From Sinorhizobium mexicanum (lineage in GTDB: Bacteria; Pseudomonadota; Alphaproteobacteria; Rhizobiales; Rhizobiaceae), in the NCBI RefSeq assembly GCF_013488225.1, contig NZ_CP041238.1:707501-771500 (forward strand): a DNA stretch of 64,000 nt, in the 5' to 3' direction. This document shows positions 1 through 12,549 of the stretch, one piece after another; within the stretch, counting starts at the first letter, position 1; each line of letters begins with the position of its first letter. Made by a program: the position numbers and the translations under genes. The notes beneath the pieces were generated by a model. It saw only the letters and a program-made list of their open reading frames with translations, made no database searches and was not told where the DNA came from.

Positions 1-821
1 AGCTTGATCGTGTCGACGCCGAAGTGGCGCATGTCGATGAAGGATTCCGATTGCCAGACAACGATCAGCGGGGCTTCCTCGTGTCCGATCAGATCCAGCA
101 CGACGGCGCGAAGCCGTTCAGAAAGCTCGGCGACGATTTTTTCGCGTTTCACGCCCAGCCAAATAATGAAATGGAAGACGACGGAGGCAAACGTCCCGAA
201 GCGCACCGTATTCATCTTGACGTTAACGGCCCTTACGAGTTTTTGCACAAGCGCCGCTGTCGGCCGGTTCACCGGCCCGTAGAACAAAAGGCCCCAAGGC
301 GCGCTGGCGGCGAAGATCATCAGCAGAATCCAGAACAACTTGGCTTGCGCGGGCAAGATGCTTGGCTCGAAATACATGTAGAGGGCGGAGACGCCGAACA
401 CGTAAAGGCAAGCGACGATCCAGAACAGGATATTCAGCGAAGTCGCGTAGAAGATCGTCTTGTATTTGAAGACATCCGCGACGAGCGCGATGTCCGAGAA
501 AACCAGCGGCTCGCGGATGAACTTGAACTTCGCGCGCGATATGCCGGTGAAGATGATGAAGAAGCTCATGACTCCGGCAGCGGCATAGAGCGGGCGCCAG
601 GAAATCGCGAAAAAACCAGCAAAGACGAGCGCTATGACCGGCAGGCGCGCGAGGATGTCGATTCTGTCCTGATTGCGCCCGTAGGGGGGCCTGTTCCTCC
701 TGCGCTCACGCGCCGGCAGGGCAAAGCGATCCGTGAAGAAAATCACGGCGCAGGACAGCAGATAGCAAAAGAGGGTCAGCGCCGCCGGATAATCATGGAG
801 ATGAAAGGAAAGCTGCGGCAA
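1..821 (-). CDS. rkpI: RkpI, K-antigen cluster membrane protein with LTA-synthase/sulfatase-like domain (partial)
   Basis: The reading frame runs off the left edge, so only about 273 N-terminal residues are visible. It begins at TTG 821, the only plausible start in an open frame that is closed upstream by a stop at 876-878; an AAGG Shine-Dalgarno lies just upstream. The visible part holds hydrophobic segments (for example around LTLFCYLLSCAVIFF and LNILFWIVACLYVFG), then a soluble stretch starting LIVVWQSESFIDMRHFG. That stretch resembles the entry of the alkaline-phosphatase/sulfatase fold in LTA synthases and phosphoglycerol transferases. Position behind rkpH identifies it as rkpI of the rkp-1 region. 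The catalytic Thr and metal ligands lie outside the window, so activity cannot be judged. Confidence 0.8.
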   Translation of the reverse strand, partial: MPQLSFHLHDYPAALTLFCYLLSCAVIFFTDRFALPARERRRNRPPYGRNQDRIDILARLPVIALVFAGFFAISWRPLYAAAGVMSFFIIFTGISRAKFKFIREPLVFSDIALVADVFKYKTIFYATSLNILFWIVACLYVFGVSALYMYFEPSILPAQAKLFWILLMIFAASAPWGLLFYGPVNRPTAALVQKLVRAVNVKMNTVRFGTFASVVFHFIIWLGVKREKIVAELSERLRAVVLDLIGHEEAPLIVVWQSESFIDMRHFGVDTIK

Positions 822-1036: not shown

Positions 1037-1840
1037 TCACCGTCCACTGCCGCGTGCGATCGCCCGGTCGAACCACCAGTCGAGGAGCGGTCTGACCGCT
1101 GGTCCGAAGCGGCCGAGCAGGAACAGGGTGGTGCCGAAGTAAACCTCGAAACGTCCCCTGTCGATGCCTTTGGCGATTCTTTGAGCGACGGCATCCGCCG
1201 GCCATGGCCGGACAGTTCCCATCACAGCGTTCGCCTCGCGCGGGCGCAAGGAGAGTTCGCGCTCGAACTGCGGGGTTTCCGTATCCGGCGGGAAGCTCAC
1301 CGATATCTGCACATCGTGTCTTCGCGCCTCGCTGCGCAGCGCCTGGGCAAAGCCGTGAAGCGCGAATTTCGACGCGCAATAGGCGGAATAGCCATAGATG
1401 CCGATGAGGCCGGCGCCCGACGAGATCATCATGATCTTGCCTCCATGCCGTCGCTTCATGTCCGCATAGACGGAGCGTACCGCGTGCACGGTGCCCGAAA
1501 AGTTCGTTTCCATCTGCCGGCGGAAGGCTGCGCTTTGCTGTTCCTCGAAAGGCGCCGGTTCGACGATGCCGGCCGAGGTCACGAGAATGTCGCACGGGCC
1601 GAAGGTTTCGATGCAGCGTCGAATGGCCGTTTCGATTTCTTCCTCCCGGGCAACGTCGGCTGCCTCCACCTGGACATCTCCGGCCTTTGCACCGTGCTCC
1701 GCCAGGAGCTTCTGCCTGGCCTGTTCCAGAAGGTCGCCTGAACGCGCGATGAGCGAGAGCCGCGCGCCGCGGCCCGCGTAGATGGATGCAAGTGCCAGGC
1801 CTATGCCGCTGGAGCCACCGGTGATGATCACATGGGTCAT
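1037..1840 (-). CDS. rkpH: RkpH, short-chain dehydrogenase resembling 3-ketosphinganine reductase
   Basis: This is a 267-aa classical SDR. The NAD(P)-binding motif TGGSSGIG lies at residues 7-14, Asn113 in NFSG, catalytic Ser140/141, and Tyr154-x3-Lys158 in YCASK. A VSFPPDTETPQF segment (181-192) resembles the VxxPPDTxTPGF signature of eukaryotic 3-ketodihydrosphingosine reductases (KDSR/TSC10) more than that of FabG. In the rkp-1 cluster it follows rkpG and precedes rkpI, with repeat elements in both gaps. Likely role (inference): reduction of the ketone made by RkpA/RkpG to an amino-alcohol lipid intermediate in K-antigen biogenesis. Family assignment is firm; the substrate is inferred. Confidence 0.88.
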   Translation of the reverse strand: MTHVIITGGSSGIGLALASIYAGRGARLSLIARSGDLLEQARQKLLAEHGAKAGDVQVEAADVAREEEIETAIRRCIETFGPCDILVTSAGIVEPAPFEEQQSAAFRRQMETNFSGTVHAVRSVYADMKRRHGGKIMMISSGAGLIGIYGYSAYCASKFALHGFAQALRSEARRHDVQISVSFPPDTETPQFERELSLRPREANAVMGTVRPWPADAVAQRIAKGIDRGRFEVYFGTTLFLLGRFGPAVRPLLDWWFDRAIARGSGR

Positions 1841-1864
1841 GCTGAGGTTCCGCCTGCGGCTTGG

Positions 1865-1967
1865 CGCATCGGCCCAAAAATCGGCATCGATTTTCGGAAA
1901 GCACGATGCGTAGGTTCAAAGAGTTACAGCGTCCTTTGTGCGTCCTGAAGGACGCACGGCGCTGTAG
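1865..1967 (-). repeat. Intergenic mosaic repeat, copy 2 (inverted relative to copy 1)
   Basis: This element lies between rkpG and rkpH. Read on the minus strand it has CTACAGCGCC, a GTGCGTCCT/AGGACGCAC hairpin (1939-1958), GGACGCTGTAACTCTTTGAA, and a distal hairpin AAAATCG/CGATTTT. It is the same family as 862-964 but in the opposite orientation, so the two copies flank rkpH as an imperfect inverted repeat. Confidence 0.72.
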
Positions 1968-1994
1968 GAGCAGAGGTTTGCGTAAGGAATGATC

Positions 1995-3410
1995 CTACCG
2001 CGCCGAAAGCGCCTTCAACATCTGTTCGATATCGACACCGCCAAGGCCGAAATTCCGTTCAGTCAGATCCTTGAGGCGTTCCGCGGTGAGCGCGACGGTA
2101 CGGCGGATCTGGTCCTCGGTGTGATCGCTGGTGATGAAGAAGCGCAGCCGCGCCAACCCTTCCGGTACGGCCGGATGGATGATCGGCAGAACATTGACTC
2201 CGGCCGCGAGCAGATCGTTGGAAAGCTGTACCGCGCGGAGCGAATCGCCGACGATGACCGGAACAACCGAAAAGCCGCCGCTCAAGCCGGTATCGAGGCC
2301 GGCTTCCTTGGCAAGCTTGAGGAACAGGCCGCCGTTGCGCCTGAGTGCCGCGGTGCGTTCCGGTTCGCGTTCAAGGATATCGAGGCTGGCGACCGCCGAT
2401 GCGCCAAGCACCGGTGCCAGGCCGACGCTGTAGACGAAGCCACCGGCCGATGCCTTGAGCACCGCCGCCAACGCTTCGCTGCCGGCAATATAGCCGCCGC
2501 AGCTCGACGTCGTTTTCGACAGCGTTCCCATCCAAATGTCGATCTCGTGGGGATCGACGCCGAAGTGTTCGGCCAGACCCTTGCCCTGCCGCCCGAGAAC
2601 ACCGAGAGAATGGGCCTCGTCGACCATCAGCCAGAAGCCATATTCGGCCTTGAGCTTCAACAGCGCGGGAAGGTTTGCGACATCGCCGTCCATCGAATAG
2701 ATGCCTTCGACGATGACCATGATGTGACGGTATTCGCCGGAAACGGTGCGCAGCACATGCTCGAGATCGGTCGCGTCGTTGTGCTTGAAGAGACGGCGCG
2801 TGGCGCCGGAAAGCTTGATACCGGCAAGTGCGCTGTTGTGGATGAACTCGTCATGGATAACGAGATCCTTGGGGCCCATCAGGCAGCTGATGGCGGCAAC
2901 ATTGGTGAGATAGCCGCTGACGAAACAGACTGCCGCGTCGACGCCGTAGAAGCGCGCAATTTTCTCCTCGAGCTCGACATGCACCGGTCGCTCCCCGGCC
3001 ACAAGCCTGCTCGCGGAGGCGGAAATCCCGAAGTTCCCGATCGTGTCGCGCGCTCTGTCGAGCACGTGGGCGTGGCGGTTCAGCCCAAGGTAATCGTAGG
3101 AGGCGAAATTGATCATCGTGCGACCGTCGATCACGGTCGTCGCACCGGCTGCCGTCTGGTGTGCCCGATAGAAGGGATTGGCGATACCCAACTGCTCGCT
3201 CGCGAATTTTTGCGTGAGCACCTGCTTATATTCAGGAAGGTCCTCGAAACGCGACTGGCGCCGACGGGGAGGTGCCGGCAACTCCCGTTCCGAGCGCGCC
3301 ATCCGGTTGCGCTCGGACGATTGGTGCGTGTTCCTCATCCTGTCCAGAAGGTTCTCCTTGAGGCTGCTGTTCATCTTGGAGAAGGTCTGGCCGTTTCCGT
3401 CGTTGCTCAT
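1995..3410 (-). CDS. rkpG: RkpG, PLP-dependent alpha-oxoamine synthase
   Basis: This 471-aa fold-type I aminotransferase-like enzyme belongs to the family of AONS (BioF), KBL, ALAS and serine palmitoyltransferase. Visible hallmarks are the PLP aspartate in VDEAHS (263-268) and Lys299 in MGTLSKT, the Schiff-base lysine. It has an N-terminal extension of roughly 50-90 residues compared with BioF. The family condenses an acyl thioester with an amino acid and releases CO2. The start ATG overlaps the rkpA stop (ATGA), indicating translational coupling. RkpG is therefore well placed to off-load the acyl chain from the RkpA carrier domain. The amino-acid substrate is unknown. Confidence 0.9.
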   Translation of the reverse strand: MSNDGNGQTFSKMNSSLKENLLDRMRNTHQSSERNRMARSERELPAPPRRRQSRFEDLPEYKQVLTQKFASEQLGIANPFYRAHQTAAGATTVIDGRTMINFASYDYLGLNRHAHVLDRARDTIGNFGISASASRLVAGERPVHVELEEKIARFYGVDAAVCFVSGYLTNVAAISCLMGPKDLVIHDEFIHNSALAGIKLSGATRRLFKHNDATDLEHVLRTVSGEYRHIMVIVEGIYSMDGDVANLPALLKLKAEYGFWLMVDEAHSLGVLGRQGKGLAEHFGVDPHEIDIWMGTLSKTTSSCGGYIAGSEALAAVLKASAGGFVYSVGLAPVLGASAVASLDILEREPERTAALRRNGGLFLKLAKEAGLDTGLSGGFSVVPVIVGDSLRAVQLSNDLLAAGVNVLPIIHPAVPEGLARLRFFITSDHTEDQIRRTVALTAERLKDLTERNFGLGGVDIEQMLKALSAR

Positions 3411-6400
3411 TGGCTCAGTGCTTTTTCCCTGTCCGCCCCGGCGTGGCGCTGTGCAAGTTCGCTCACAAGCCGGTCATCGGCCGCCTCGCCATCGTCGCCC
3501 TGGTCCCGCTTGCTTACTTTCTCATAGAGTTTGCGCGCAACATCGCCCACCGTCGTATTGTCGGCGACGCCGCTCAACGGCATGTCGAAGCCGGTGTTTT
3601 GCTGGAAGCTCATGCCGAGTTCCACCGCCATCAGGCTATCCAGGCCGATTTCCTTCAGGATCTTGCCACGGGTCACCGTATCTTTCGACACGCGAAGGAT
3701 TGCGGCGATTTCGCCTGCCACCAGGTCGAACAGGATGTCTTCGGCTTCCTGCGACGATTTCCCCTCGATCATCGCGACGAGGTCCATCTTTGTTCCCTCG
3801 GCACCGGAAGAATGCTGATCCGCGCTGCGCAGAATCACCTCGAAGAGCGCGTTCCGGGCGACCGGCAGGTTGCGTGCCGCCGTCCAGTCGATCTCCGAAA
3901 TCATCACGACCGCCGCATCGACGGTGCCGGGATCCGAGGCGATGTGGCTTTCGACCATGTCGAGCGCCACCTGAGCCCTCAAGGTGATCTTGCCGATGCG
4001 CTTGGCCAGAAGCTCGTTCACGTCGGTGTTCTGCGCAAGATAACCGGCGTCGGCGATCGCGCCGAAGCCGACCGCGAGACCCGCGAAGCCCCCCGCGCGG
4101 CGGGCGCGGGCAAGGCCTTCGAGATAGCCGTTGGCTGCGACGTAGTTGGCCTGTCCGGGGTTGCCGACCAGAGTCGTTGCCGAGGAGAACAGGATAAAGT
4201 TGTCGAGTTGGTCGTCGCGCGTCAGCCGGTCGAGGATCGCAGCACCCTTGGCCTTCGTGTCGATCACCGGTCGGTTACGCTCGCGGCTGAGATTGCTGAT
4301 CAGGGCGTCGTCCAGCACCATCGCCGCATGAACGACGGAACGCAGCGGCGCCTCGGCACGAAGCGTCGCAAGAAGTCCATCGACCGCGGCAGCGTCGGTG
4401 ATATCGCAGGCATGGAGTGAGGCAGACACGCCCGTCTTCTGCCAGCGCGCGAGCATCGCGCTCGTCCCGGCGTCCGCCTGACCGCGGCGCGAGCACAGTG
4501 CGATCCTGCGTGCACCTTTCTCGACCAGCCAGTTGGCGGCTGCGAGACCGAAACCGCCGATGCCGCCGACGACGAGATGAACGCCGTTCGGATCCACTTT
4601 GACGCCCCTATGCGGCTTCGCGGCGATCTCGTGCGTGCCGGCGACCGGCGGCAGGACCACGATCTTGCCGATGTGCCCGGCATTCTGCATCAGGCGGAAA
4701 GCGTTGCCGATTTCGTCGAAATCGAAGGCGCGGTAGGGCAGCGGCGTAAGCTTCCCTTCTTCGAAAAGCGCCCCGATTTCCATGAAGATTCGTTTGGTGA
4801 GCGCAGGCGCATTGACCAGAAGCTGGTCCGCATCGATGCCGAAATAGCTGACATTGCGTCGGAACGGCCGCAATCCGATCTTGCTGTCCGCGTAATAGTC
4901 GCGCTTGCCGAGTTCCAGGAACCGGCCGAAAGGCTTCACGAGCGCGAGGCTTTGTTCCATCGCCTCGGCGAACAGCGAGTTGAGCACGAGGTCGACGCCC
5001 TCTCCGCCGGTGGCGGCGCGCACGTCGTTGACGAAGCCGAGGGAGCGCGAATCGAAGACATGGTCGGCACCGAGCATCGTCAAGAAGCGTCGTTTTTCAC
5101 GCGTTCCAGCCGTCGCTATGACCTTGGCGCCCTTTAGTTTGGCAACCTGGAGCGCGGCCAGACCGACGCCGCCGGCAGCGCCATGGATGAGGATAGTCTC
5201 TCCGGCCTGGATGCGGCCGAGCTCGATCATCGCGTAATAGGCCGTGAGGAAAGCGACCGGCACAGTGGCGGCGGCTACCGGGCTGATGGTTCGCGGCAGT
5301 TTTGCAACGCCGGCGCGGGAAACGACCGCGTGCGTCGAGAATGCCGAAGATGCGATCGCCATGACCGCGTCGCCGACGGCAAGGTCGTCGACCCCTTCGC
5401 CGACCGCGACCACATGGCCCGAAAGCTCCATGCCGATCGTCGCGCCGGCAAAGCCGTCTTCGAGCGCTTCCTCGGGAAGAAGGCCCATCGCCCACATGAC
5501 GTCGCGGAAGTTCAGGCCCGTCGCCGCAACGGCGACGACGATCTCGCCCCGTCCGGCCCGTGGCACATCAGCTTCCTCCCAGGCGATGCTCGCAACCTGC
5601 GAGCTCACGCGCTGGCGGATGGTCGCCGCCGTGAAGGAGCTTGTCTTTCCTTCCGTTCGGGCGGCGGGGCCGGGAACGGCGCGGATTTCCGAGAGCAACC
5701 CGGTGGCCTGGTCCAGCAACCATTCACGATTTGAACCGGATGCGGTCAACAGCGGCAATGCCGACCTGATGCCAGCATCCAAGCTCGCCTTCTCGTGACC
5801 GCCAAGGTCGAGCGAATGGACGTCGAGGAATTCGTATTCATTCTGAAGAACGCGAGCGAACGCCCAAAGGCCGGAATTCACGCCGGAACTGATCGAAATG
5901 CCACTTTTGCCCGAAGTAACCGGCGCGCCGCCCGGAACAACTAGCACCAGGCGAGGGCGGTCGTCGACTGACGCGTCAGCGTCTGCGAGATGCTGCCTCA
6001 GTGCTTCGGCGAAGGCGCTCAGCGCAAGCACATAGGTCTGCAGCGAGGCGGAATCGGTGTCGCTCGCATGACCCGTCGCGGGCGAAACGAGTACCGCGCG
6101 AACAGGGTTCTGGCCCAACATGCCGAGCGCGGTCTGCAGTGCTGCAACGTCCACGGCCATGTCGCCCACGAGCGAGACTGGTACGGCGTGGCCAGGCATC
6201 GACGCGGTGTCGCGGGCGGAACCTTCCACCTGGATGACAAGATAGGGGCCGGCAACGGCCTCGTTCGCCTGCATCGGCTCGCCGGATGTTGCCGCCGCAA
6301 TCGTGCCGCGGGCCTCGAGCAGGATGATGTTGCCGTGTGCGCACTCATGGTCCGCGACGTTGATGTCGCGCAGTCCGAGATCCGAAAGACATTTCTGCCA

Positions 6401-9400
6401 ATGCGGTACGGCAGCAAGGTTGCCGATTGGGAACTCCGCCGTCTGACTGCGGGCGAACCAGCCGTCGGACAATCCGAGAGCGAAGTCGCCGAAGATCGAG
6501 GGAGCACTGACAGCTGCAGCAAGGACGCCGCCTTCACGCAGCATCGCTCGCAATGCAGTGCGCAGCGCGACCTCATCCTCGATCAGATGGTAAAGCCTGT
6601 CAGAGGCGCTGACAGCGAGGTCGAAGGGCGCGATCGCCGCGAATTCACCTTTCTTGAGAATGCGCACATGGGCATCGTTCTCGAATGCGATCTCAAGGTT
6701 GCGCTGCGCGTTCTCGCGCGGTTCGGCGACGATCAGGCTCGCGCCATGACGCGCCGCCAGGTCAGCGAGCCGCCGCGTAAAGCCCGTCGAAACGCTTCCG
6801 AATTCGACGATGCGCAAGGGGACGCCGGTGTTTTGCGCAGTCAGTGCCCGTTCAGCCGCCCCGAGCACCCGCTCCATGCGCTGCCGGCTCGCAACGGAAT
6901 GCACAGCCTGATGGTCGAGCGTCGCGTCGCTGATGAAGCCCGCGAAGGACGGAGAGTGGTCGCCATCCGGCCCCGCAGTGAAGAGCGCGTCGAGCCGGCT
7001 CAAGGCCTCAGTGTAGGCATTGTTGATAAGCACGGCTTCGACCGCGCGATCGGGGCGCTCGCCATAGAGTTCGCCGAGGATTTCGGCCACGGCCGGAAGG
7101 CTGAACTCGCGCGCAACCGTCCAGACACCATTTTGATGTCCGCTCAGTCCCGCGTCCTCCAACACGTAGAGGCAGCTTGTCAGGAAACACTGGAAGGCGA
7201 AGTCGCCGGGCAGGGCATCGCCGCGGATCGTGGCGCCTCCCCTTGCAAGTTTCAGCGCGATTTCCTGGCAGGCGCGGTAGATCGCAGCGTTGAACAGCAA
7301 GGTCGCGTTGTCCACGCTGTCGTCGCCACCGGCGGGCGGCGTCAGCAAGGACGGCATGGGTGCGGCCGGCTTGGCGCCGGGCAGTGTCGTCTCGGAGAGC
7401 ACGGTCTCGTAGTGGAAGGAAAGCCCATCCAGCGTCTTGTGCTTGCGCAAATAGGTGCGGCGGAAACGACAATCGTCGAAATGTGCAATCGCTTCGCCCG
7501 ATTTGTCGAAGAATTGGAACCTCGCCTTGATCGAATTGGCACTGACGCGCTCGATCTCGATGATGGCGCGAGCGATCGGCCGTCCGGCGTTGACGACGTG
7601 CACGGAACCGAAGCGCACCGGAATGTAGGGTGCGCCGCCCTTGTCACCCGTAAAGCGATCGAAGAGCGCAACGAGGCCATGGAAGGTGGCATCGACGGAG
7701 ATTGGGTGAAGAGAGTAGCTGACGAGCGGGTGTCCCGCCGCATTCGGCGCCTTCAGTTCGACATCGATGATCCGGTCGCCGTACGCGACGGCCTTTGAAA
7801 GCAGTTGGAAGCTCGGACCGTAGTCGAGCCCGAATTGCTTCGCCGTATCGTAGGCTTTCGAAGGATCGACGCTCGCCGTTTTCGCCATTTTGGCGAAGGA
7901 CGGAGAGGCATTGTTCTTTCCGGGCACGGGCTTGCGGCTTCGCGCGACGGCATGCACGGCCCAGTCGTCCTCCGAGAGGCGCTCGCGCGAGCGGATCTCG
8001 ATGTCCCCCGTCTCTGGCGACAGGATGGTCGACAGCTCCATGATGCGGCTGTCATTGAGCTCCAGCGGGCGAACGATCTCCAGGTTGGTGATCTCCACCT
8101 CGTCACTGCCGTAATACTGCTGTGCGGCGGAAACCGCCACTTCGATGAAGCCGCTGCCCGGCAAAATAGCTTTGCCGTCGACGACATGCTCCGCCAGATC
8201 CGGGAAGAGATGTGCGTCGACGTGGTTCTTCCAGCTTCCGCTGTTCGGATCGCTACGCCAGCCCGTCAGACGATAAGGCCGGGCGGAACGGCCGAAGAGG
8301 TCGGTGGAATCGGTCGTGGCCGCGGGCCGCAATTCGACCGGCTCGAAGGGCAGCGCCGGCAATTCGACGAAAGCGTTGCGCTTGCCGTAGACGCGGGGGC
8401 GGTCGACCGCCGCACCGTGCGCGACGGCACGCGCCATCGATGCCGAAATCGGATCGTGACCGCTCTGGCCGACGTCCCGAAGCAACGTCGGCACGACCGC
8501 CGCCGGGAAGGCCGCCTGCTTGATCGTTTCCTTGACATAGGATGCCAGGATCGGGCGCGGGGAAATTTCGATGAAAAGCCGGCAGCCGAGTTCGAGCGCC
8601 GCCTCCGCGGCGGCTTGGAAGCGGACCGGTTCGCGGACGTTTTTCCACCAATAGTCCGGATCGAGCTCGGTACCCTCGAGTGCCGCGCCGGTTACGGTCG
8701 AGAGATAGGTCAGTTCCGTCCGCCGCGGGGCAATGTCCGGAATGTCGGAAAGGAAGGCCTGCTTTGCCTGGTCGATGACCGGATGGTGGAACGGGTAGTT
8801 GATGTCGAGGATCTGGACCGGGATCTTGGCCTTGCGCGCGGCGTCGCGGAAAGCGGAGATTTCGTGCGCCGGACCCGACATCGTGACCGAATTGTGCGCA
8901 TTGACGGCTGCGACGCAGAGCTCGTTGAGACCGCGCGCCTGCGCAAAGGCCCGGGCCGCTTCCTCGCCAAGCATCGCGGCCGCCATCGTTCCCTGGCCTG
9001 CCAGCAGATCCTGATGCAGCGACCGCTTGGCAACGATCGACACCGCATCAACGAGCGACAGTGCGCCGGCCGCATAGGCGGCGGCGATCTCGCCGACCGA
9101 GTGACCGAAGACCGCAGTCGGTTTGATGCCCATCGCCACCAGAGAATCTGAGAGAGCAGCCTGCACGGCGAAAAGCAGCGGCTGCGCGATCTTCGTGTCC
9201 GAGAGCTTCTTGTCGAGTTCCGGATCCGTCAGCAGGTCGGTCAAGACGATGTCGGAATGGAACTTGAAGAGCGCGCTGACGGATGTGAAGGACTGGCGGA
9301 AGTGCAGGTTCTCGCGGAAGGCTTCGACGCCCATCCCGGCCCATTGAGAGCCGTTGCCCGAGAAGACGAACGCGACTTTTGCATCCTTCACCGGGGCTTC

Positions 9401-10948
9401 GCCCACTTCGCCAATGTCGGAGCCGGGCTTTTCCAGATGGCTGGCGATCGCGCGCACGATATCTTCGGGGTGATCGCTGCGCGCTGCGAAGCGATGGCGC
9501 ATATGGGTGCGGTTGGCGCCGGAGGCGGCGATCATCGCGCGCGTCTCTTCCTTTGAGGCAGTCGCAAAGCTCGCCTTGTACTCCTTCAACAGGGTCTCGA
9601 GGCTCGACGCCGTGTGGGCGCTCGCCATGAACACGTGACCGGCCGGCGAAAGAGCGGCTTTCTCTTCGTGTAACGTCTCCGGATCGCTGATGACCACGTG
9701 CGCGTTGGCGCCGCCGAAGCCGAACGAGTTGATGCCGGCGAGGCGTGCACGCTTGCCTTTGAGCAGTTCGATCGGGTTGGCAGTGACGCGAACGTTCAGT
9801 CCGTCGAAATCGATATGTTCGTTCGGCGTGTCGAAGTGCAGCGACGCCGGCAGGTAGTTGTGCTCAAGCGCCAGGATGGCTTTCATCATGCCGAACAGAC
9901 CGGAGGCCGGCTCGGTGTGCCCGATATTGGACTTGATGGAACCGATCGGCACCGGCGCCCTGCGTTTCGCGCCAATTACGGTGCCGATGGACCATACTTC
10001 CGCCGGGTCGCCGACCTTTGTTCCGGTGCCGTGGCCCTCGACAAAGGCGACCTGGTTGGCGTCGATGCCGTTGCCTTCATAGATGGCCCTGAGCAGATTG
10101 GCCTGCGCCTCACGCGAAGGAAGCGAAATGCCATTGGTCCGGCCGGCGGAGTTGACTCCGGTTGCTACGATCCTGGCGTAGCTGCGGTCGCGTTCGCGGC
10201 GCGCCCGGTCCGAGCGACGAAGGATGAAGACGACGCCGCCCTCGGCGCGCACGTAGCCGGCGCCATCGTTGTCATAGGCCCGGCAGAGGCCCTCCGGCGA
10301 CAACATCCGCGCTTGGGCGAAGCCGACGAAGGGAAGGGGATGGGCAAGAATGTTGACGCCGCCGACGATCGCAGTGTCGATCTCGCCGGCGTTGAGAGCC
10401 CGCATCGCCTGATCGAGCGCCACCAGCGACGAGGAACAGGCGGTATCCACCGTCATGCTCGGTCCGCTCAACCCGAAGATGTGGGAAATGCGGTTTGAGA
10501 CGATCGACAGCGTGTTGCCGGTCATGAAATAGGGACCGGCGGCGGCCGGATCTTCCACGGTCAGATTGGCGTGGTCGAGGCTCGACGCGCCGACATAGAC
10601 GCCGACATTTTCGCCGTGGAGGGATGCGATGGAAATATTGGCGTCTTCAAGCGCGCGCCAGGCGAGCTGCAACAGCACGCGCTGCTGCGGGTCCATGTAC
10701 ATGGCCTCCCGCTGGGACATGCCAAAGACGGCCGGATCGAAATCATAGATTTGATCGAGCACGCCAGCCGCAAAGGAATAGGTCTTCCCCTGCACGCCCA
10801 TGACCGGATGCCAAAAGCGTGCCAAATCCCAGCGGTCCGAAGGAACACTGGATACGGTGCATTTGCCTTGACGAAGAATCTTGAACAGCGCCTCAGGCGA
10901 TTTCGCTCCAGGGGCAAGGCATGCACGCCCTATGATTTCAACAGTCAT
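3407..10948 (-). CDS. rkpA: RkpA, multidomain polyketide / fatty-acid synthase
   Basis: This uninterrupted 2513-aa type I synthase has domain order KS-AT-DH-(methyltransferase-like)-ER-KR-ACP. KS: Cys171, His306, His344. AT: Ser617 in GHSVGE and YPFHHP near 718. DH: HVVDGKAILP at 921-930 and Asp1086 in HPISVD. A methyltransferase-like region covers about 1200-1530 with a non-canonical motif I (VEFGSVSTG). ER: NADPH site HGAAGGVGL near 1922. KR: VVGGIGGFG near 2126, Ser2255/2256 and Tyr2269. ACP: Ser2438 in GLDSL. There is one fully reducing module and no thioesterase, so chain release must come from elsewhere, plausibly RkpG, to which it is coupled by ATGA. It supplies a lipid needed for K-antigen production. 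The start has no strong Shine-Dalgarno. Confidence 0.95.
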   Translation of the reverse strand: MTVEIIGRACLAPGAKSPEALFKILRQGKCTVSSVPSDRWDLARFWHPVMGVQGKTYSFAAGVLDQIYDFDPAVFGMSQREAMYMDPQQRVLLQLAWRALEDANISIASLHGENVGVYVGASSLDHANLTVEDPAAAGPYFMTGNTLSIVSNRISHIFGLSGPSMTVDTACSSSLVALDQAMRALNAGEIDTAIVGGVNILAHPLPFVGFAQARMLSPEGLCRAYDNDGAGYVRAEGGVVFILRRSDRARRERDRSYARIVATGVNSAGRTNGISLPSREAQANLLRAIYEGNGIDANQVAFVEGHGTGTKVGDPAEVWSIGTVIGAKRRAPVPIGSIKSNIGHTEPASGLFGMMKAILALEHNYLPASLHFDTPNEHIDFDGLNVRVTANPIELLKGKRARLAGINSFGFGGANAHVVISDPETLHEEKAALSPAGHVFMASAHTASSLETLLKEYKASFATASKEETRAMIAASGANRTHMRHRFAARSDHPEDIVRAIASHLEKPGSDIGEVGEAPVKDAKVAFVFSGNGSQWAGMGVEAFRENLHFRQSFTSVSALFKFHSDIVLTDLLTDPELDKKLSDTKIAQPLLFAVQAALSDSLVAMGIKPTAVFGHSVGEIAAAYAAGALSLVDAVSIVAKRSLHQDLLAGQGTMAAAMLGEEAARAFAQARGLNELCVAAVNAHNSVTMSGPAHEISAFRDAARKAKIPVQILDINYPFHHPVIDQAKQAFLSDIPDIAPRRTELTYLSTVTGAALEGTELDPDYWWKNVREPVRFQAAAEAALELGCRLFIEISPRPILASYVKETIKQAAFPAAVVPTLLRDVGQSGHDPISASMARAVAHGAAVDRPRVYGKRNAFVELPALPFEPVELRPAATTDSTDLFGRSARPYRLTGWRSDPNSGSWKNHVDAHLFPDLAEHVVDGKAILPGSGFIEVAVSAAQQYYGSDEVEITNLEIVRPLELNDSRIMELSTILSPETGDIEIRSRERLSEDDWAVHAVARSRKPVPGKNNASPSFAKMAKTASVDPSKAYDTAKQFGLDYGPSFQLLSKAVAYGDRIIDVELKAPNAAGHPLVSYSLHPISVDATFHGLVALFDRFTGDKGGAPYIPVRFGSVHVVNAGRPIARAIIEIERVSANSIKARFQFFDKSGEAIAHFDDCRFRRTYLRKHKTLDGLSFHYETVLSETTLPGAKPAAPMPSLLTPPAGGDDSVDNATLLFNAAIYRACQEIALKLARGGATIRGDALPGDFAFQCFLTSCLYVLEDAGLSGHQNGVWTVAREFSLPAVAEILGELYGERPDRAVEAVLINNAYTEALSRLDALFTAGPDGDHSPSFAGFISDATLDHQAVHSVASRQRMERVLGAAERALTAQNTGVPLRIVEFGSVSTGFTRRLADLAARHGASLIVAEPRENAQRNLEIAFENDAHVRILKKGEFAAIAPFDLAVSASDRLYHLIEDEVALRTALRAMLREGGVLAAAVSAPSIFGDFALGLSDGWFARSQTAEFPIGNLAAVPHWQKCLSDLGLRDINVADHECAHGNIILLEARGTIAAATSGEPMQANEAVAGPYLVIQVEGSARDTASMPGHAVPVSLVGDMAVDVAALQTALGMLGQNPVRAVLVSPATGHASDTDSASLQTYVLALSAFAEALRQHLADADASVDDRPRLVLVVPGGAPVTSGKSGISISSGVNSGLWAFARVLQNEYEFLDVHSLDLGGHEKASLDAGIRSALPLLTASGSNREWLLDQATGLLSEIRAVPGPAARTEGKTSSFTAATIRQRVSSQVASIAWEEADVPRAGRGEIVVAVAATGLNFRDVMWAMGLLPEEALEDGFAGATIGMELSGHVVAVGEGVDDLAVGDAVMAIASSAFSTHAVVSRAGVAKLPRTISPVAAATVPVAFLTAYYAMIELGRIQAGETILIHGAAGGVGLAALQVAKLKGAKVIATAGTREKRRFLTMLGADHVFDSRSLGFVNDVRAATGGEGVDLVLNSLFAEAMEQSLALVKPFGRFLELGKRDYYADSKIGLRPFRRNVSYFGIDADQLLVNAPALTKRIFMEIGALFEEGKLTPLPYRAFDFDEIGNAFRLMQNAGHIGKIVVLPPVAGTHEIAAKPHRGVKVDPNGVHLVVGGIGGFGLAAANWLVEKGARRIALCSRRGQADAGTSAMLARWQKTGVSASLHACDITDAAAVDGLLATLRAEAPLRSVVHAAMVLDDALISNLSRERNRPVIDTKAKGAAILDRLTRDDQLDNFILFSSATTLVGNPGQANYVAANGYLEGLARARRAGGFAGLAVGFGAIADAGYLAQNTDVNELLAKRIGKITLRAQVALDMVESHIASDPGTVDAAVVMISEIDWTAARNLPVARNALFEVILRSADQHSSGAEGTKMDLVAMIEGKSSQEAEDILFDLVAGEIAAILRVSKDTVTRGKILKEIGLDSLMAVELGMSFQQNTGFDMPLSGVADNTTVGDVARKLYEKVSKRDQGDDGEAADDRLVSELAQRHAGADREKALSQ

Positions 10949-11361: not shown

Positions 11362-12549
11362 GTGAAACGAGTGACTGCCCTTCTGCTTTGCACCGCGCTT
11401 GCGGGATGTCAGGCCGTGCCGGGAGAAGGCCCTCTCACAACCGATATCGTCGCGGATGCCGGCCAGTCCGGGGCGCAGATCGGCAGAAAGAATGCGACCG
11501 TCTTTGACATTGTCGACGTTGATGGCCAATCGGCACGGTTGGTCTCGGACTACGTTTCCACGACGCTCAGCCGGCGCTTCGGCATTGGCGGCGGTGTCGG
11601 TCAGGTGGTCATCGGCGTCGGTGATCAGCTGAAAATATCGATCTTCGAGGCAGGCAGCGACGGGCTGTTTTCCACAACGGAATCGAAGCAGACCAACATC
11701 GATCTTGTTGTTCAGCCTGACGGCAAGGCGGCCATTCCCTATGTCGGTCCGGTTCGCTTTGCCGGCCTGACGCTGGAACAGGCGCGCCAGGCAATTCTCG
11801 AAGCACTGAAGCAGAAGGCCGTGGAGCCCGATGTCATCGTGACGAGCACGTCCACGGCATCGCGCATCGTCACCGTCTCCGGCGCAGTCGGCCGTCCATC
11901 CGTCGTGCCGTTGAACCTCGTCAGCGAGTCGATCAACGAAGTCATCGCCAAGGCCGGCGGTCCGTCGGCGCAGCCTTACGAGACCTATGTCACGCTTGTG
12001 CGCGGCAAGAAGACCGGAACGGTCCTGCTGAAATCGATCATCGAAAACCCGTCGGAAAACATTCATGTCAAGCCGGGCGACCAGGTCTTCGTGACCCGGG
12101 ATCCGCGCACGTTCACGATCCTTGGCCAGGTCAGGGCGAACCAGCGCGTCGAGTTCGGTGCCAATGACCTGAACCTGCTCGAAGCCGTGGCGCTCGCGGG
12201 CGGCGGCTCGGACCGCACTGTCGATGCCAAGGGCTATTTCATCTTCCGCTACGAAGAGCCGGATATCGTCATGAGCCTGCTAGGACGGGAACGGTTCAAC
12301 ACGATGCTGAGCAAGGGCATGAAGCCCGACAGCGTCGGGCGCTATCCGATCGTCTATCGTTTCAACATGACCAACCCGGATAGCCTGATCGTCGGCCAAA
12401 CCTTCCCGATCAAGAATCGCGATGTGATCTATGCATCGCGTCATCCCTCCGTCGATATTTCGAAGTTCCTCGACTTCGTCGCGCGGCCGATCGGCATAGC
12501 CAATACGGGCGTCAACATCGCGGACAACCTCGACGATCTGCAGAACTGA
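11362..12549 (+). CDS. Outer-membrane polysaccharide export lipoprotein (Wza/KpsD family)
   Basis: This 395-aa protein starts at GTG 11362, with GGAG upstream. A lipoprotein signal peptide ends in LAGC, with Cys16 as the lipidation site. A Poly_export (PES) domain follows, beginning IGVGDQLKISIFE, with VQPDGKAAIPYVG and the LTLEQARQAI helix, and then SLBB-type repeats (VTVSGAVGRPSVVPL and FTILGQVRANQRVEF). The family forms the outer-membrane channel for capsule or exopolysaccharide export. Divergent transcription from rkpA suggests a role in K-antigen or another surface polysaccharide. A gene beside rkpA has been called rkpU in S. meliloti; I cannot confirm that name from sequence. Confidence 0.85.
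   Translation: MKRVTALLLCTALAGCQAVPGEGPLTTDIVADAGQSGAQIGRKNATVFDIVDVDGQSARLVSDYVSTTLSRRFGIGGGVGQVVIGVGDQLKISIFEAGSDGLFSTTESKQTNIDLVVQPDGKAAIPYVGPVRFAGLTLEQARQAILEALKQKAVEPDVIVTSTSTASRIVTVSGAVGRPSVVPLNLVSESINEVIAKAGGPSAQPYETYVTLVRGKKTGTVLLKSIIENPSENIHVKPGDQVFVTRDPRTFTILGQVRANQRVEFGANDLNLLEAVALAGGGSDRTVDAKGYFIFRYEEPDIVMSLLGRERFNTMLSKGMKPDSVGRYPIVYRFNMTNPDSLIVGQTFPIKNRDVIYASRHPSVDISKFLDFVARPIGIANTGVNIADNLDDLQN

Follow-up and report, generated by a model that had tools for sequence, protein, structure and literature searches.

What lipid do the rkp genes of Sinorhizobium mexicanum make, and could the capsule rest on it? The question is raised by a stretch of 64,000 nucleotides (contig NZ_CP041238.1, G000:C1:707501-771500; here called the window) in a 7.14-Mb genome, the minus strand of which carries rkpA (10948-3407), rkpG (3410-1995) and rkpH (1840-1037), followed by rkpI and rkpJ. 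The gene names come from a preliminary description of the window and agree with the rkp-1 region as described in PMC7902896 and PMC4881576; the older rkpA-F are now taken as a single large rkpA (PMC7902896), and the region is said to take part in making 'a specific lipid carrier' (PMC4881576). The preliminary description had read rkpA-rkpG-rkpH as a polyketide route to a sphingoid-like lipid. This is largely supported here by an alpha-oxoamine synthase (AOS) of the SgaB clade, a reductase of the 3-ketosphinganine reductase (KDSR) group and a natural fusion of a polyketide synthase (PKS) to an AOS, and we lean slightly towards reading rkpA-G-H(-I-J) as a dedicated pathway for a lipid anchor. 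The features of the three genes, all on the minus strand, are as follows.

3407..10948, minus: rkpA, monomodular fully reducing type I PKS or fatty acid synthase, 2513 residues (Pfam, catalytic motifs)
9830..10942, minus: RkpA ketosynthase (KS), residues 3-373 (PF00109/PF02801)
8465..9370, minus: RkpA acyltransferase (AT), residues 527-828, with GHSVGE and YPFH (PF00698, motifs)
7457..8245, minus: RkpA dehydratase (DH), residues 902-1164 (PF21089/PF14765)
5555..7456, minus: RkpA interval between DH and enoylreductase, without a Pfam match
4655..5554, minus: RkpA enoylreductase (ER), residues 1799-2098 (PF08240/PF00107/PF13602)
4052..4585, minus: RkpA ketoreductase (KR), residues 2122-2299 (PF08659)
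3533..3721, minus: RkpA acyl carrier protein (ACP), residues 2410-2472, GLDSL at 2435 (PF00550, motif)
3407..3410, minus: ATGA overlap of 4 nt between the rkpA stop and the rkpG start (sequence)
1995..3410, minus: rkpG, AOS of the PKS-linked (SgaB) clade, 471 residues (PF00155, tree)
2514-2516, minus: RkpG Lys299, the pyridoxal phosphate (PLP) lysine, within GTLSK (sequence)
1037..1840, minus: rkpH, short-chain dehydrogenase (SDR) of the KDSR/TSC10 group, 267 residues (PF00106, profile, tree)
1271..1300, minus: RkpH segment VSFPPDTETP, residues 181-190 (alignment)

The system with which these genes can best be compared was published in 2025. In Pseudomonas fluorescens MYb115, the monomodular PKS SgaA and the synthase SgaB produce sphinganines of C24-C28. 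SgaB is an L-serine-specific palmitoyltransferase, the purified enzyme showing a strong preference for L-serine when supplied with acyl-CoA surrogates, and SgaC is the presumed KDSR (PMC12134224). Further MYb115 lipids, heavier by 154 Da, were assigned as most likely phosphoglycerol sphingolipids (PMC12134224). The terms rkp, rhizobi and capsul have no match in the main text of that paper. Three of our loci (L172-L174), from members of the genus of genome G344, contain the published sgaA start primer exactly, and this genus was therefore taken as Pseudomonas; the other two primer sites had no exact match, so these loci are relatives of MYb115 and not MYb115 itself. In L172, KpsC, KpsS, SDR, RkpI-type, GNAT, KpsC and PhyH follow one another, and SgaB and SgaA come next in convergent orientation. 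If the locus tags are spaced by five per gene, then, starting at RS19805 (SgaA), RS19775 (the published SgaC) would be the SDR adjoining KpsS and RS19780 the RkpI-type gene. The sga and rkp systems share a monomodular KS-AT-DH-ER-KR-ACP synthase without a thioesterase (as seen in L172), an AOS of the same clade and an SDR, and in the relatives of MYb115 the RkpI-type and KpsS genes adjoin sga as well. However, the sga SDR belongs to a lineage other than that of RkpH and has no PPDTxTP-type motif, and the gene order is also different.

RkpA had the domain order KS-AT-DH-ER-KR-ACP by Pfam, identical to that of the SgaA relative in L172, and the motif scan found the motifs intact: DTACSSS, HGTGT and NIGH in the KS, the two AT motifs listed above, HVVDGKAILP and DATFH in the DH, LIHGAAGGVG in the ER, GGIGGFG and S..Y..N in the KR, and GLDSL in the ACP. 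No thioesterase was found in RkpA, either as a Pfam match or as a GxSxG motif C-terminal of the ACP. With six domains, intact motifs, one module and no thioesterase, RkpA has the make-up of an iterative highly reducing type I PKS, in line with the preliminary description. Its acyltransferase is presumably of the malonyl type. The approximately 630 residues from DH to ER had no match to any Pfam family and are possibly a degenerate methyltransferase or a structural region.

The four-nucleotide overlap of rkpA and rkpG is consistent with the translational coupling that had been proposed for them; the overlap itself was seen. The identification of RkpG as an AOS with Lys299 as the lysine of GTLSK held, as the protein has the fold-type I PLP domain (PF00155) together with the Schiff-base lysine, stacking histidine and aspartate expected of these enzymes (K299, H191, D264, H267), and H191, D264, H267, K299, R421 and R423 were invariant in 12 aligned sequences. 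RkpG scored under all NCBIfam cut-offs, bioF being the nearest (360 vs 426 bits), and its top PDB match was the serine palmitoyltransferase (SPT) 3a2b (230 bits), the CqsA entries reaching 84. In an unrooted maximum-likelihood tree built from 56 selected synthases, the 33 that are linked to a PKS, including RkpG and the Pseudomonas SgaB relatives such as L172, formed one clade (98/95), to which five stand-alone synthases were sister (100/99), and the SPT, BioF, KBL and HemA rows all lay outside it. The phylogeny, suggested in the preliminary description as a check, thus placed RkpG with the biochemically tested SgaB type and away from BioF and KBL, and did not place it inside the canonical SPT clade. 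Among the reference rows, all three HemA rows and the one KBL row were over their own NCBIfam cut-off, as was one of the eight alpha-type SPT rows, the remainder being labelled by a strong sub-threshold match; of the BioF rows, L067 and L068 were over the cut-off, L065 was slightly under and L066 had no scan.

RkpG was also considered as a canonical SPT and rejected, being below the cut-offs of the curated SPT equivalogs (298.7 vs 640, 273.4 vs 500 and 203.1 vs 670 bits) and separated from the SPT clade by a 100/99 branch. Its identity to the SgaB relatives was 51-52%. L-serine condensation is known for the P. fluorescens SgaB only, and for RkpG the use of serine is a prediction by analogy. 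A PFFxxH-type N-terminal segment precedes the catalytic domain of RkpG (window ~3100-3410, minus strand). It was present in 28 of the 33 PKS-linked rows and in none of the other 23, among them two PDB segments that lack the N-terminus, and was missing from all eight SPT rows that contain the N-terminus; it is possible that it acts as an ACP-docking element.

For RkpH, a single-sequence search gave many SDR matches, with TSC10 at rank 25. A profile of 13 RkpH relatives searched against PDB gave TSC10 as the second match overall (148 bits) and the first among single-domain matches. In the tree, ten RkpH rows together with TSC10 and the SDRs of loci L056, L061 and L062 were split from five generic SDRs by a 100/98 branch; with five generic references and a long TSC10 branch, this gives moderate support for placing RkpH in the KDSR/TSC10 group, and RkpH was not found firmly among unrelated SDRs. 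The VSFPPDTETP segment and the resemblance to 3-ketosphinganine reductases, both remarked upon beforehand, were therefore borne out. The corresponding motif P[PSC][DG]TxTP was found in 13 of the 15 rows first labelled RkpH-like and in none of 23 SgaC-like rows, and the two rows without it were generic SDRs in the tree. The UniRef label '3-dehydrosphinganine reductase' already stands on RkpH relatives, including a Sinorhizobium meliloti entry, among the 120 of 4077 matches listed. With this labelling, and with the PKS-to-sphingoid chemistry already published in 2025, the first three steps are not new in kind. The capsule-linked SDRs of other loci formed a lineage of their own (100/99); the reductase has apparently been exchanged.

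The tie between synthase and PKS was followed in loci selected solely by similarity to RkpG. In the named collection, which retained the best 80 of at least 574 candidate loci and in which the closest was from an Ensifer sp. (RkpG identity 97%), a PKS adjoined the synthase in 78 of 80, several contigs ending inside the PKS. The two PKS-less loci (L116 and L142) are on contigs of Hyphomicrobium metagenome-assembled genomes, which carry an RkpG-type synthase with other open frames upstream, and their PKS may be elsewhere. Among 398 genomes of the phylum, all 18 best matches besides the window's own had an adjacent PKS, and in 12 further loci from these genomes a PKS was adjacent in one (L063). 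In L056, one frame of 2611 residues comprises KS-AT-DH-ER-KR-ACP and the synthase, a natural PKS-AOS fusion with a KDSR-like SDR downstream on the same strand.

The surroundings of L056 (1183-16667) include HlyD, FtsX, ABC, outer-membrane efflux and CTP_transf_1 genes besides the SDR, which sets this sphingoid cluster among genes for export. By motif scan, L064 (2201-8014, plus strand) carries a differently laid-out PKS-AOS fusion, a 1937-residue frame in which a KS and two carrier-like motifs are combined with an AOS of more distant kinship. Two separate PKS-AOS pairs (L053 and L055) are present in genome G012, in which PF05159 was absent at E 1e-40. In the sister clade, L062 (8997-12800) has a stand-alone AOS, DUF4833, a myo-inositol-1-phosphate synthase (Pfam) and a KDSR-like SDR, LptF/LptG lying farther along, and L061 (6330-10531) has frames of similar size in the same order, its KDSR-like SDR carrying PPDTDTP; these loci are possibly an inositol-phospho-sphingolipid cluster.

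The two genes that follow rkpH bear on whether the lipid serves the capsule.

1..821 of the window, whole gene G000:C1:706729-708321, minus: rkpI, membrane protein of the GacH/LtaS phosphoglycerol transferase type, 530 residues (PF00884, PDB profile, fold)
G000:C1:705397-706713, outside the window, minus: rkpJ, probably KpsS-type (PF05159)

The spacing is 154 nt between rkpG and rkpH, 215 nt between rkpH and rkpI and 15 nt between rkpI and rkpJ, and a kpsF-type gene lies beyond rkpJ on the opposite strand. The RkpI profile matched GacH, LtaP and LtaS in PDB, and E259, T299, D469 and H470 were invariant in 16 sequences, so that RkpI has the alkaline-phosphatase fold, the catalytic Thr, Glu and Asp-His and the subfamily kinship of the GacH/LtaS enzymes. 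RkpJ matched the Capsule_synth family PF05159 with 363.7 bits and the KpsS equivalog NF050054 over its full length with 209 bits (cut-off 600).

Across the 298 genomes assigned to the Pseudomonas genus, the AOS (E 1e-75), strong KpsC/S matches (E < 1e-30) and RkpI-type genes (E 1e-30) were each found in 15, any match to PF05159 being found in 39. The KpsC/S and RkpI-type sets were identical, and 14 of these 15 genomes also had the AOS. The exceptions were G547, with a cut PKS frame and no AOS, and G437, with a distant AOS and a weak PF05159 match only. In the G547 locus (L195), KpsC-KpsS-SDR-RkpI-type-KpsC was kept, with a PKS frame of ~1233 codons and no AOS within 30 kb, which may be a decayed cluster or an assembly gap. 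Of the 20-kb loci taken from the 15 genomes with an AOS, 12 contained Kps, 11 RkpI and 10 the SDR. These counts, like those of the phylum set below, take no account of shared ancestry; a cluster moving as one block would yield them too, and block transfer itself points to joint function. In the phylum set, PF05159 (E 1e-40) was found in 58 of the 398 genomes, 14 of 19 with PKS-AOS vs 44 of 379 others (Fisher 3e-9, shared ancestry being ignored). In the 29 named loci that we grouped as Rhizobiaceae-type, Kps was found in 23, RkpI in 22 and SDR in 27, and most Rhizobiaceae loci fetched had the order A-G-H-I-J with a KpsS-type rkpJ; the 33 other loci with at least 7 kb downstream had Kps in 15, RkpI in 3 and SDR in 13.

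Taken in order, RkpA would work iteratively, extending a long saturated acyl chain that is carried by its own ACP. As RkpA has no thioesterase, the chain would be removed from the ACP by RkpG, which would condense the chain with an amino acid (L-serine being the likeliest, as in the SgaB clade), with loss of CO2 to give 3-ketosphinganine, and RkpH, by its KDSR kinship, would reduce the ketone to sphinganine. By homology to the tested system, these three steps are very probably correct. RkpI would then transfer phosphoglycerol onto the 1-hydroxyl, giving a single-chain phosphoglycero-sphinganine, the kind of molecule suggested for the +154 Da Pseudomonas lipids; family assignment, gene order and co-occurrence make this reasonably likely. 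KpsS is described as acting on (lyso-)phosphatidylglycerol ((lyso-)PG; PMC7694667), and phosphoglycero-sphinganine, with one chain and phosphoglycerol, has the outline of lyso-PG. It could therefore serve as a lyso-PG mimic and acceptor for RkpJ as a KpsS-type transferase of 3-deoxy-D-manno-octulosonic acid (Kdo), with the K-antigen polysaccharide built on it and anchored by it, a step for which the same evidence makes us a little less than evenly disposed. We suggest tentatively that rkp-1, the Pseudomonas sga genes and their relatives could be one system, a PKS route to a very-long-chain phosphoglycero-sphinganine that replaces lyso-PG as the KpsS acceptor and forms an unrecognised capsule anchor across alpha-, beta- and gammaproteobacteria; RkpI would be the missing phosphoglycerol transferase of the published PG-sphingolipids, and these would be capsule-anchor intermediates. 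Our literature searches found no report equating rkp-1 with sga, naming RkpI as the headgroup enzyme or proposing a sphingoid KpsS acceptor, and the capsule link of the PKS-sphingoid system looks new.

Several observations weigh against a capsule anchor. None of Kps, RkpI or Wza was nearby in 15 of the 33 non-rhizobial loci, and a strong KpsC/S match was missing in 5 of the 19 PKS-AOS genomes; several PKS-AOS clusters thus stand apart from capsule genes and their lipid may have other fates. The whole-length fold of RkpI was closest to MCR-1/EptA, that is, to a group including outward-facing phosphoethanolamine transferases, which slightly lowers the likelihood of the phosphoglycerol and acceptor steps. 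Enzymes of the LtaS, GacH and EptA types are outward-facing, and if RkpI is so too, the lipid would need to be flipped ahead of KpsS. By a crude count, the positive residues of loops 1 and 3 and those past TM5 suggest an inward domain, and the rhizobial RkpI members have additional hydrophobic stretches. It could be that RkpA, RkpG and RkpH make a free sphingoid or aminoalcohol lipid, either a membrane component or a secreted metabolite, with an indirect loss of capsule in mutants. The sga lipids of P. fluorescens are indeed free in extracts and active on the host (PMC12134224), and the L056 fusion lies among efflux genes and not capsule genes. We nevertheless consider this explanation unlikely, as KpsC/S, RkpI-type genes and the AOS nearly coincide in the Pseudomonas genus and as rkpJ of the KpsS type closes the A-G-H-I-J order in most Rhizobiaceae loci.

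Other explanations concern the product itself. RkpG could use alanine or glycine, giving a fumonisin-like 1-deoxysphingoid or other amino ketones without a 1-hydroxyl for phosphoglycerol, as AOS enzymes differ in their amino acid and RkpG shares only about half of its residues with the SgaB relatives and reaches none of the SPT cut-offs. Its position in the clade of the L-serine-specific SgaB type, and an operon including a phosphoglycerol-transferase-type RkpI that needs an acceptor hydroxyl, make this quite improbable. We give a similarly small probability to the reading in which RkpA-G-H do not make the anchor backbone but supply an acyl or amino-acyl group that modifies lipopolysaccharide or an anchor of ordinary lyso-PG. 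The older annotation of the rkp genes was reportedly that of a cluster resembling a fatty acid synthase (Petrovics 1993, by its title), and a 'phospholipid anchor' is said to be the subject of Fraysse 2005, again by its title, which would suit such a modification, but AOS and KDSR-type enzymes suit a sphingoid base, and such a base is the product of the sister cluster. That RkpG is a BioF/KBL-type enzyme or a CqsA-like signal synthase with no sphingoid role, for which its highest NCBIfam score (bioF) could speak, is very improbable given its place in the tree away from BioF, KBL and HemA and its far better match to 3a2b than to CqsA.

The proposed anchor pathway can be set beside other known systems. 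FUM1 of the fumonisin pathway is a PKS and FUM8 an AOS. Compared by gene content alone, the fumonisin and sphingofungin pathways resemble rkp in their PKS-derived sphinganine-like products and KDSR-type SDR (FUM13, SphF; PMC12134224), but they are fungal and have no capsule genes. The canonical bacterial SPT pathway shares the AOS chemistry, the catalytic residues and, in 3a2b, the top PDB match, whereas RkpG lies outside the SPT clade, carries the PFFxxH-type segment and is tied to a PKS. The Escherichia coli group 2 capsule is alike in the probable KpsS type of RkpJ; its anchor is (lyso-)PG (PMC7694667), whereas a PKS-made sphingoid is proposed for rkp. RkpI resembles LtaS and GacH in profile, fold match and the four invariant residues, but differs in its proposed acceptor, a sphingoid base, and in a whole-length fold nearer to MCR-1/EptA. 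The Burkholderia wcbR-type clusters are likened here by the statement, in PMC3908369, that wcb clusters are orthologous to rkp. An SPT mutant of Porphyromonas gingivalis had reduced K-antigen, and in the same paper an anchoring of surface polysaccharide by sphingolipids was put forward as a speculation (PMC5126122); by analogy, this may be taken as an independent precedent for sphingolipid anchoring.

One more gene lies beside rkpA, in divergent orientation.

11362..12549, plus: Wza-type polysaccharide export gene (Poly_export/SLBB)

It occupies the position described for rkpU, upstream of rkpA (PMC7902896), and is presumably that gene.

Since the 1990s, discussion of the rkp-1 lipid carrier has treated it as a fatty-acid-synthase-like product. 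A search of the whole genome with the alphaproteobacterial SPT model, the only SPT model used for this, gave no match at E 1e-100. If the proposal is correct, nodulation-relevant rhizobial capsules would have a sphingoid lipid at their base, and this in a genome without a match to that SPT model at this threshold, and sphingolipids would extend beyond the groups counted as producers. The published host-protective lipid would acquire a function in the cell envelope together with a candidate headgroup enzyme, and the old question of what lipid anchors the rhizobial capsule would be answered.

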